64,000 nt of DNA from Candidatus Sphingomonas phytovorans (GTDB lineage Bacteria > Pseudomonadota > Alphaproteobacteria > Sphingomonadales > Sphingomonadaceae). The notes under the pieces were generated by a model. It was not told the origin of the DNA and searched no databases. It worked only from the letters and a program-made list of their open reading frames with translations. Shown here piece by piece: positions 13,145-16,207 of this stretch. A program made the translations under genes and the position numbers. The stretch is taken from positions 3,970,501 to 4,034,500 of the forward strand of contig CP119314.1 of NCBI GenBank assembly GCA_029202385.1, read 5' to 3'. Each line of letters begins with the position of its first letter. Position 1 is the first letter of the stretch.

Positions 13145-13933
13145 ATGACCAGCGCAGCCATGCACATCGCGCGGACCGGGCTCGACGCCCAGGACATGCG
13201 CATGCGGGTGATCTCGAACAACCTCGCGAACGTGAACACCACCGGGTACAAGCGCGACCGGGCGGCGTTCGAGACGCTCGCCTATCAGACGGTCACCGCG
13301 CCGGGGGCACCGAGCACGGCCGAGACCAAATATGCGGTCGGGCTCAACCTCGGCACCGGCGTCCGAATCCAGGGCACCGCGCGAATCGACACCCAGGGCG
13401 CGATGCAAACCACGGGCAACGCGCTCGATCTCGCGCTCGACGGGGACGGTTATTTCCAGGTCCAGATGCCGGGGGGCACGCTGGGCTATACCCGCGCGGG
13501 CAATTTCACCCGCTCGCCGGAAGGCCTGCTGGTCACTTCGGAAGGCTATCAGGTGATGCCCGGCATCACCGTGCCGGAGGGCGCGACCGCGATCACCGTC
13601 GGCACCGACGGCACGGTCTCGGCGACCGTGCCCGGCCAGACCGAGGCGAGCCAGCTTGGCCAGATTCAGGTCGCCAGCTTCGCCAATTCGGCCGGCCTGC
13701 TGAGCAAGGGCGACAATTACCTGACTGAGACCGCGGCATCGGGCGCGGCGAATCTCGGCGTCGCCGGCCTCGAGGGTCGCGGCAACATCCGCCAGGGCAT
13801 GCTCGAAGCGTCCAATGTCAACGTCGTCGAGGAGCTTGTCGACATGATCGAGACTCAGCGTGCGTACGAGGTAAATTCAAAAATGATCTCGGCGACCGAC
13901 GACATGCTGAAATATGTTAACCAAAATATCTGA
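13145..13933 (+). CDS. flgG: Distal rod protein FlgG
   Basis: 262 residues, the standard FlgG length. N-terminal ISNNLANVNTTGYKRDRAAF and C-terminal LEASNVNVVEELVDMIETQR are near-consensus. The stop shares one base with the flgH start (TGATG). Confidence 0.98.
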   Translation: MTSAAMHIARTGLDAQDMRMRVISNNLANVNTTGYKRDRAAFETLAYQTVTAPGAPSTAETKYAVGLNLGTGVRIQGTARIDTQGAMQTTGNALDLALDGDGYFQVQMPGGTLGYTRAGNFTRSPEGLLVTSEGYQVMPGITVPEGATAITVGTDGTVSATVPGQTEASQLGQIQVASFANSAGLLSKGDNYLTETAASGAANLGVAGLEGRGNIRQGMLEASNVNVVEELVDMIETQRAYEVNSKMISATDDMLKYVNQNI

Positions 13934-14634
13934 TGGTTAATTTCATGAAACCGTCAGCCACCTTGATCGCCCTGATCGCGCTGCCCGCCGCCGTCGCGCT
14001 CGCGCCGTCGCCCGCCGACGCGCGCCTGTTCGGCAAGAAGAAGGAGCCGGTCGATTTCTCCGCCGCGCTCCCCCTTCCCATGCCGGTCGCGGCCCCCGCC
14101 AACGGATCGATCTTCCAGGCGAGCGACGGCTATGCTGCGCTTCACGAAGGAGCGCGCGCGCGCCGGGTCGGCGATCCGCTGACGATCCTGCTGGTCGAGC
14201 GCACCGTCGCCTCCAAATCGGCGAGCTCGAAGCTCGACAGCGGCGGCGGCCTGAGCATCACCCCGCCCACCACCGGCGCCCTCTCGCTGTTCAAGAACAC
14301 GGACGCCAGCGCGAGCAACACCCGCAACTTCACCGGCAGCGGCGCGACCGACCAGTCGAACACCCTGTCGGGCGAGGTCAGCGTGACCGTTTCCGCCGTC
14401 TATCCCAATGGCACCATGCTGGTGCAGGGCCAGAAGCGCGTGACGCTCAATCGCGGCGACGAGTTCGTCCAGATCAAGGGCCTGATCCGCGTCGCCGACA
14501 TCGACGCCAACAACCGCGTGCCCTCCACCCGCGTGGCGGATGCGCAGATCGCCTATACCGGCAAGGGCGATGTGGCCCGCGCCAGCCGCCAGGGCTGGCT
14601 TGGCCGATTCTTCTCCGTCGTCAGCCCCTTCTGA
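13933..14634 (+). CDS. flgH: Flagellar L-ring protein FlgH, no lipobox
   Basis: 233 residues. The FlgH core is clear: ARRVGDPLTILLVERTVASK, SGEVSVTVSAVYPNGTMLV and GLIRVADIDANNRVPSTRV. The N terminus (LIALIALPAAVALAPSPADA) is an ordinary Sec signal, and the protein has no cysteine at all, so it cannot be lipid-anchored in the usual FlgH way. An alternative start is the ATG at 13945. It overlaps flgG and flgI by one base each. Confidence 0.95.
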   Translation: MVNFMKPSATLIALIALPAAVALAPSPADARLFGKKKEPVDFSAALPLPMPVAAPANGSIFQASDGYAALHEGARARRVGDPLTILLVERTVASKSASSKLDSGGGLSITPPTTGALSLFKNTDASASNTRNFTGSGATDQSNTLSGEVSVTVSAVYPNGTMLVQGQKRVTLNRGDEFVQIKGLIRVADIDANNRVPSTRVADAQIAYTGKGDVARASRQGWLGRFFSVVSPF

Positions 14635-15854
14635 TGAAAGCGCCCGCGATGTTCCGTTTGGTAGCTCTTTGCCACGCTGCGCTGGGCCGCCGCACCAGCC
14701 CGCTCCCCCACCCGGCCTCCCATCGAGGATACCGTGTGGGAGGCCGGGTGGGGGAGCGGGCTGGTGCGGCTCTTCTGGCGGTAGCTGCGATCTTCCTCGC
14801 GGCCACTCCGGCACACGCCGACAGGGTCAAGGACCTTGGCGGTTTCCAGGGCATCCGCTCGAACCAGCTCACGGGCTATGGCATCGTGGTCGGCCTGCCC
14901 GGCACGGGCGACGACAATCTCGAATATACCATCCAGTCGATGAAGGCGGTCGCCTCGCGATTCGGGCTTCAGCTTCCACCCAACGCCAATCCCGGGCTGA
15001 AGAACGCAGCGGTGGTGATGATCACCGCCGACCTGCCCGCCTTCGCCAAGCCGGGCCAGAAGCTCGACATCACCGTCGCCTCGATGGGCAAGGCCAAGTC
15101 GCTGCGCGGCGGAGCGCTGATCCTGACGCCGCTGCTCGGCGCCGACGGCCAGATCTACGCGATGGCGCAGGGCAACCTCGCCGTCGGCGGGCTTGGCGCC
15201 GAGGGCAAGGACGGATCGCAGATCGTCGTCAACATTCCCTCCGCCGGTCGCATCCCCGAAGGTGCCACGGTCGAGCGCGCGGTCCAGACCGGTTTCGAAA
15301 CGTCGCCGGTGCTGACCTACAACCTCACCCGCGCCGACTTCACCACCGCGCAGAATGTCGCCGCCGCGATCAACACGCGGCTCGGCGCCGGTTCCGCCCA
15401 GGCGATCGACGCCGTCTCGGTCTCGGTCCGCGCGCCGATGGGCGGCGACGTCCGTGCGACCCTGATGAGCGAGATCGAGAATCTCGACGTCGTCTCGGCC
15501 GAACCTTCGGCCAAGGTGATCGTCAACGCCCGCACCGGCACCGTCGTGATCAACTCGGCGGTCCGGGTCGGCCCCGCCGCGGTCAGCCACGGCAAGCTCA
15601 CCGTTCGCATCGACGAGCAGCAGCATGTCAGCCAGCCCTTGCCGTTCAGCCAGGGCCAGACGGCGACCGAGCAGAAGAGCGGCGTCGCGGTCGACGAGGA
15701 GCATCGCCCGATGTTCCTGCTCGAACCCGGCCCGAAGCTCGCCGATGTGGTCAAGGCAGTGAACGCGATCGGCGCGTCGCCGGCCGACCTGGTCGCCATC
15801 CTCGAAGCGCTGAAGGAAGCCGGCGCGCTGAAAGCGGAGCTGATCGTCCTGTGA
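14634..15854 (+). CDS. flgI: Flagellar P-ring protein FlgI with a palindromic insert in its signal region
   Basis: 406 residues, longer than the usual ~370. The mature part starts after AATPAHA with DRVKDLGGFQGIRSNQLTGY and keeps the whole P-ring domain to the C terminus. The extra length is an 82-base perfect palindrome (14689-14770) read in frame as residues ~19-46. If translation starts at 14634 the signal peptide is preceded by a long polar stretch. In-frame GTG codons inside the element (the later one starts GERAGAALLAVAAIFLAATP) would give a normal signal peptide, so the element may now supply the start codon. FlgI is periplasmic and is assembled by FlgA. Confidence 0.95.
   Translation: MKAPAMFRLVALCHAALGRRTSPLPHPASHRGYRVGGRVGERAGAALLAVAAIFLAATPAHADRVKDLGGFQGIRSNQLTGYGIVVGLPGTGDDNLEYTIQSMKAVASRFGLQLPPNANPGLKNAAVVMITADLPAFAKPGQKLDITVASMGKAKSLRGGALILTPLLGADGQIYAMAQGNLAVGGLGAEGKDGSQIVVNIPSAGRIPEGATVERAVQTGFETSPVLTYNLTRADFTTAQNVAAAINTRLGAGSAQAIDAVSVSVRAPMGGDVRATLMSEIENLDVVSAEPSAKVIVNARTGTVVINSAVRVGPAAVSHGKLTVRIDEQQHVSQPLPFSQGQTATEQKSGVAVDEEHRPMFLLEPGPKLADVVKAVNAIGASPADLVAILEALKEAGALKAELIVL
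14689..14770. repeat. 82-base palindromic element inside flgI
   Basis: Two perfect 34-base inverted arms (14689-14722 and 14737-14770) surround a 14-base loop. The arms contain CTCCCCCACCCGGCCTCCCA and its complement. This resembles the REP/MITE-like palindromes common between genes in sphingomonads. I saw no clear target-site duplication. It is the only copy I found in the window. Confidence 0.93.
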
Positions 15855-16207
15855 CCGACATCCCAGCCCTTCCCCCATCCCGTCCTACGCCCGGCCCGAC
15901 CACCGGCATCGGCGTCGACACGAGCCGCCTCGCCTCGCGTGCCAACCTCGAAAAGGCCGGCAAGCAATTCGAGTCGGTCTTTGCCGGCATGATGCTGAAG
16001 TCGATGCGTCAGGCCCATCTCGCCGAGGAGCTGTTCTCGTCCAAGGGACTCGACACGTTTCGCGACATGCAGGACCAGCAGGTCGCGCAGTCGATGGCGG
16101 ATCACGCCCCGCTCGGCATCGGCAAGGCGATGACCGATTTCCTCGCCAAGTCGCAGGCCAATCTCCAGCCTGAATCGACGGCGAAACCCGCGGGTGAGAC
16201 GCCATGA
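15851..16207 (+). CDS. flgJ: Rod-binding protein FlgJ, N-terminal domain only
   Basis: 118 residues from a GTG at 15851 that overlaps the flgI stop (GTGA). NLEKAGKQFESVFAGMMLKS, MRQAHL and DHAPLGIGKAMTDFLAK are the rod-binding domain. The peptidoglycan hydrolase half found in enterobacterial FlgJ is missing. The separate lytic transglycosylase at 5846-6718 probably takes that role. The stop overlaps flgK by four bases. Confidence 0.93.
   Translation: MTDIPALPPSRPTPGPTTGIGVDTSRLASRANLEKAGKQFESVFAGMMLKSMRQAHLAEELFSSKGLDTFRDMQDQQVAQSMADHAPLGIGKAMTDFLAKSQANLQPESTAKPAGETP

Follow-up and report, generated by a model that had tools for sequence, protein, structure and literature searches.

How a perfect palindrome can be carried in frame within flgI, the gene of the flagellar P-ring protein, is the question raised by a 64,000-nucleotide (nt) stretch of Candidatus Sphingomonas phytovorans (contig CP119314.1 of assembly GCA_029202385.1, positions 3,970,501 to 4,034,500, forward strand; the whole stretch is called the window). 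After comparison with other genomes of the genus, it was considered quite probable that a palindrome of a repeat family was inserted into the FlgI leader, that it is read through from an ATG coupled to flgH, that the leader is removed on export, and that out-of-frame copies have been lost. The features of the locus, in positions of the window, are as follows.

13933..14634, + strand: flgH, L-ring protein (open reading frame; Pfam FlgH 1.5e-54)
14634..15854, + strand: flgI, P-ring protein, 406 residues, with the palindrome in its leader (open reading frame; Pfam FlgI 5e-130, residues 64-405; NCBIfam FlgI)
14634..14819, + strand: extended FlgI leader, 62 residues (comparison with relatives; putative cleavage from the A-x-A pattern)
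14689..14722, + strand: left arm of the palindrome, 34 nt (inverted-repeat search)
14723..14736, + strand: loop of the palindrome, 14 bases, TCGAGGATACCGTG, inverted in the same-species genome G144 (inverted-repeat search)
14736..14738, + strand: in-frame GTG within the palindrome, candidate alternative start, with GAGG at 14725-14728 ahead of it (sequence)
14737..14770, + strand: right arm of the palindrome, 34 nt (inverted-repeat search)
14772..14819, + strand: hydrophobic stretch and putative cleavage region 3' of the palindrome, LLAVAAIFLAATPAHA (translation)
15851..16207, + strand: flgJ-like gene (Rod-binding), with a GTGA overlap with the flgI stop (Pfam Rod-binding 8.9e-12)

The stop codon of flgH (TGA, 14632-14634) overlapped the ATG of flgI (TGATG, 14632-14636), and the flgI reading frame (14634-15854) ran through the whole palindrome without a stop. 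As stated in a preliminary description of this DNA, the palindrome consisted of perfect arms, 100% complementary over 34 nt, around a 14-base loop and lay in frame near the flgI start. It was the strongest inverted repeat of the 64 kb window (arms of at least 20 nt, within 150 nt); three other inverted repeats reported there were overlapping 76-86% palindromes, none of them comparable. When a 28-base core of the arm was searched with up to 3 mismatches, only the two arms matched (mean of 0.00 in 100 shuffles). The Pfam FlgI match started at residue 64, past the predicted leader, and mature FlgI probably starts at 14820, between AHA and DRV, the site being read from the A-x-A pattern and not by a signal-peptide predictor. 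Hydrophobic stretches flanked the palindrome in the leader (LVALCHAAL before, LLAVAAIFLAA after). The earlier placement between the start and the signal peptide was thus right as to the frame but not as to the position, the element lying inside the leader.

The insertion was evident from close relatives with an empty flgI leader, namely G293 (MKAPAMLRFLTALLAGLLIAGPANA), G033, G271 and G168, so the element is not an ordinary shared part of flgI. The leader measured 62 residues in the window against 25 in G293 and G033, which means that 37 codons were added and not the ~27 estimated before. The same insertion was found in three other genomes (G144, G266 and G265) and in a database FlgI protein (P0001), and an assembly error was dismissed because these assemblies are separate. 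In G144, of the same species (locus L066), the element occupied the same site but had an inverted loop and was 12 nt shorter, the frame being kept. G266 carried it at the same site with one substitution, and G265 with one substitution and 24 extra nucleotides upstream, again in frame, on a contig that breaks at the palindrome. Since G266 and G265 share the loop orientation of the window, the inversion in G144 is probably derived. The 12 nt of G144 were apparently lost from one arm between short direct repeats, within coding sequence; this genome held a second match to the element elsewhere. In another part of the tree, the flgI of G240 held, likewise in frame, a family copy distinct from that of the window; the relatives of G240 were empty. 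The best reading is an insertion at the flgI start that took place in a common ancestor of two or more species. Two further flgI genes were peculiar in other ways: that of G068 (L067, L068) appeared to be split in two, each piece in its own frame, in a genome made up of one contig, and a second FlgI of the window's genome (G000:C1:3172293-3173354), 36% identical, possibly belongs to a second flagellar system.

Further, 156 flgI loci, out of 264 genomes of the genus matching at E<=1e-100, were scanned from -1250 to +200 of the mature start. No flgH stop was found in two of them, and the counts exclude G267, with a stop inside its match, and L294, a named metagenome-assembled genome with an in-frame repeat in its FlgI leader. 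A strong inverted repeat was present in 27 of the 156 loci: in 26 it came after the flgH stop and ahead of mature FlgI, and the remaining locus, L030, carried it in frame within the leader of flgH. The flgI palindromes started 3-54 nt past the upstream stop. With L294 added, the 27 palindrome-bearing loci fell into eight sequence groups unlinked by blastn at E<=1e-5; labels assigned by motif were loose, label G being unspecific, and the counts do not rest on them. Bearers named by an identical 180-nt stretch were S. echinoides ATCC 14820, S. glacialis E6.1, S. faeni MA-olki and Sphingomonas sp. OK281. Tandem palindromes in L129, L138 and L149 gave leaders of 121-123 residues. Within 54 loci of full context (about 222 kb), 11 of the 12 strong palindromes fell into the flgH-flgI junction and leader, which make up 6.9 kb, and the twelfth into the flgH leader; none was seen in the flgH body, mature flgI, the downstream part or the flgI-flgJ junction (4.05 kb). 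That last junction, which served as the control, had a GTGA or ATGA overlap in at least 50 of the 54 loci; FlgJ is not known to have a cleaved leader.

Another 27 copies of the family outside flgI were screened by a codon-bias filter, without individual annotation, and one lay in the leader of a pseudopilin; gspJ was therefore examined as a second gene. The starting locus matched Pfam T2SSJ (2.4e-9) and N_methyl, and reached 62.1 bits with NCBIfam gspJ, against a cut-off of 64.85, from residue 46 on, past the element. Found by the mature part, 98 loci from 103 genomes were scanned from -550 to +100 (G107, G096, G075, G296 and G300 were omitted, L330 and L352 dropped as repeats; one of the 98 had no upstream gene end). 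gspJ overlapped the upstream gene by GTGA or ATGA in 84 loci. Strong palindromes were found in 17 loci, all at most 153 nt before GFTLIEL and starting 12-40 nt past the upstream stop, and five of them (L320, L332, L335, L360 and L397) grouped with the element of the window. Where a longer context was available (35 loci), four of five strong repeats preceded the gspJ motif, and the fifth (L342) was situated 1.4 kb downstream, flanked by two converging reading frames. For both genes the inserts lay ahead of the predicted cleavage site. The recurrence of in-frame leader palindromes, which involves unlike palindromes and extends to another exported protein, is an addition to the preliminary description.

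An upstream start and an open true frame through the palindrome were recorded in 24 of 26 flgI loci, as compared with 3 and 0 for the other two frames; the 3 belonged to the window's own clade and needed TTG, and with ATG and GTG only the counts were 24, 0 and 0. The corresponding gspJ counts were 15 of 17, 0 and 0. A start overlapping the upstream stop was available in the true frame in 22 of 26 flgI and 10 of 17 gspJ loci, and in the other frames in none. The palindromes were stop-free, frame by frame, in 24, 8 and 3 of 26 loci for flgI and in 17, 5 and 6 of 17 for gspJ. A tally of events made by eye from tip orders, which is a judgement without branch support, counted about 24 events as read through and 4 as not read through; with p=1/3 the binomial probability was 1.6e-8.

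Such frame conservation would be an artefact if the genes started past the palindrome and the open frame arose by chance or mis-annotation. According to PMC3733652, many N-terminal repetitive extragenic palindromic (REP) elements may indeed be extragenic, with translation starting downstream, and a later ATG was present in several flgI loci. The off-frame counts (3 and 0 of 26; 0 and 0 of 17) contradict this, as do the 17 gspJ loci, in none of which an in-frame ATG or GTG followed the palindrome (TTG was not looked for). The frame control and these gspJ loci argue that the palindromes are really translated, and an artefact was regarded as very improbable.

A takeover of initiation by in-frame GTG codons of the element had also been suggested before. 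On this view, the GTG at 14736, served by the GAGG of the loop, would be the new start and the upstream codons would be dead. The two stand at a workable spacing, in or beside the loop, in the window's genome, G266 and G265 alike, and the product (MGGRVGERAGAALLAV...) would resemble a normal signal peptide. A new start predicts no frame constraint upstream of it, yet the frame was kept across the 12-nt deletion, the 24-nt difference and many other insertions. Moreover, the inverted loop of G144 loses GAGG, though an in-frame ATG arises there, and in the gspJ loci L328, L335, L360, L388 and L397 the palindrome contained no start codon and was followed by neither ATG nor GTG. The takeover is thus less supported and was considered unlikely, although the GTG of the element could add some initiation.

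The ratio of nonsynonymous to synonymous divergence (dN/dS) of mature FlgI was 0.00-0.09 in the pairs compared, except for one pair of 19 codons (0.56); between the window's genome and G144, dN was 0.000 and dS 0.159 over 344 codons. The leaders gave 0.27 to 2.33 in the pairs compared, two pairs being undefined, with 0.86, 0.30 and 0.37 on 40-44 codons in the window's clade. By these ratios, mature FlgI is under strong purifying selection and the inserted leaders are much less constrained. All 21 coupled-ATG flgI leaders listed carried a net charge of +3 to +15 ahead of the last 18 residues. Synonymous divergence was lower in several inserted leaders (L017-L149) than in mature flgI; for L017-L136 it was 0.059 in the leader against 0.332 in the mature gene.

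It may be asked whether selection maintains the hairpin for regulating translation or mRNA stability of flgI (or gspJ), its coding being incidental. The stem is very stable (34 bp, -92 kcal/mol, just past the flgI start), the lower synonymous divergence of several leaders would agree with such a role, and REP-type repeats have been proposed to act as RNA (PMC3733652). The presence of the palindromes was patchy, with empty relatives near palindrome-bearing loci in the tree, and the arms of shared insertions held changes that seemed uncompensated by eye (T to G in G265; L136; L147). Regulation alone also needs no frame, and a regulator was held to be an improbable explanation.

Several observations weigh against reading through from the coupled start. 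The frame counts were taken over related loci and are not independent events. Four loci with strong palindromes were not read through (L174 and L203 for flgI, L332 and L415 for gspJ), and under looser criteria the repeats of L013, L096, L110 and L113 preceded a later start and were out of frame with any coupled one. A good ATG followed the palindrome in several flgI loci, such as L140, L143, L144 and L170, so the open frame there may be a relic. The -92 kcal/mol, 34-bp stem near the flgI start might hinder translation. Finally, flgH overlapped flgG in 83 of the 135 loci with an identified flgG end, but a strong palindrome lay in the flgH leader in only 1 of 156; hence, an overlap and a leader are not sufficient.

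Insertion followed by read-through is still preferred, and the following sequence of steps was proposed. Palindromes of several families would tend to land shortly past the stop codon of the upstream gene. Since the overlap leaves flgH and flgI without a spacer, an insert at that position lies within the leader of flgI. Translation would start at the flgH-coupled ATG and run through the palindrome, which would add a basic segment (GRRTSPLPHPASHRGYRVGGRVGERAGA) ahead of the final hydrophobic portion of the signal peptide. Since the leader would be cut off on export, the P ring would remain unchanged. Insertions out of frame or in retained parts of the protein would be lost by selection. The presumed outcome is that cleaved leaders of translationally coupled genes form an intragenic niche for repeats at little cost.

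The family of the element was matched in 159 of 295 genomes of the genus Sphingomonas (E<=1e-8), which, along with the empty relatives, bore out the earlier view of a mobile-looking palindrome family inserted in frame. The window's genome had a single copy at E<=0.001, and three further 21-base arm-like matches in it (3 mismatches) formed no comparable palindrome. By eye, the arms of the copies were conserved and the loops often alike, and most copies began with GCCGCACC or GCGGCACC; a GTAG or CGTC end tag, as defined in PMC3733652, was not seen among them, the ends being mostly GCCGC/GCGGC. Many 82-base copies sat between two small hairpins (flanks of L041, L042 and L049; by eye), as if the element were part of a larger multi-hairpin unit. 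About 14 bases ahead of the element (CGCTGCGCTGRGCC) were conserved among the flgI insertions L007, L037, L039 and L094, with differing sequence further upstream, so the mobile unit may exceed 82 bases.

For copy-rich G309, 24 copies of 40 places were returned as loci; not one of these 24 lay inside a recognisable gene body, as called by a crude gene caller and a reading of 10 candidate proteins. The family is hence short, many-copy and mostly extragenic, in the manner of REPs or REP doublets forming hairpins (REPIN) with a REP-associated tyrosine transposase (RAYT). The Y1 transposase domain PF01797 was present in 7 of 12 genomes tested, the window's genome having 2, and gave no match in the copy-rich G309, G078, G030 and G240; mobilisation by RAYT was left unsupported for these four. 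Similarity of the flanks, taken as a test of target-site duplication, was significant in G240 (0 of 2000 shuffles) and not in the window's genome (432), G266 (411) or G144 (1053 of 2000). Eleven plasmid records matched the element at E<=1, three sphingomonad ones covering at least 80% of the query, with no gene listed under the matches in an incomplete gene table. Of 261 candidates in a protein search with FlgI residues 14-54, one matched at E<=10, and it was a further FlgI. An Rfam identity was rejected: at E<=1 there were 16 matches, chiefly to hairpins of microRNAs, which were all under gathering scores and were taken for fortuitous fits to a perfect hairpin.

Similar elements are known. 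Rickettsia palindromic elements (RPEs) are in-frame palindromic repeats of several families in genes, and the RPE-bearing product Gmk was shown to be active with its insert, as described in PMC2229807, PMC10969869, PMC3733652 and PMC6649704. Several families in frame in genes are common to both systems, and here too a conserved gene carried the palindrome in frame while relatives were empty. By these descriptions, RPEs occur in many unrelated genes, whereas the Sphingomonas inserts occupy the putatively cleaved leaders of coupled genes. REP elements, GTAG- or CGTC-tagged and including CGTC-1 of Sphingomonas wittichii, lie in some cases inside open reading frames, and those of S. wittichii sit close to the 3' end of the upstream frame (PMC3733652). 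In S. glacialis E6.1 and G031 the insert in flgI resembled them, beginning with CCGTCACC and having CGTC at its end. The family of the window differed in lacking a GTAG/CGTC tag, in its 34-nt arms and in the missing Y1 transposase matches of the four copy-rich genomes. The enterobacterial RU-2/YPAL repeat likewise contributes to a predicted signal peptide, in Yersinia YPO1552 (PMC2759123 and PMC2229807); that case concerns one putative exported protein with a predicted signal sequence formed in part by the repeat, in contrast to Sphingomonas, where conserved genes that already had a leader received insertions repeatedly. No report of the leader-palindrome pattern was found among the open-access papers listed on palindromes in Sphingomonas, signal peptides and FlgI and on coding palindromes.

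In-frame coding palindromes are best known from Rickettsia, and N-terminal REPs elsewhere were suspected to be extragenic, with translation starting downstream (PMC3733652). The rule proposed here, insertion past a stop codon together with survival in leaders removed on export, would predict where repeats can live inside genes. The flgI loci also offer naturally occurring versions of a single leader, spanning about 20 to 123 residues, by which the tolerance of signal peptides could be gauged. With somewhat better than even confidence, we propose that the cleavable export leaders of coupled genes are a general refuge, which several unrelated palindrome families colonise independently and in which they evolve freely but locked in frame; they may thereby create new coding sequence or tune the translation of operons.
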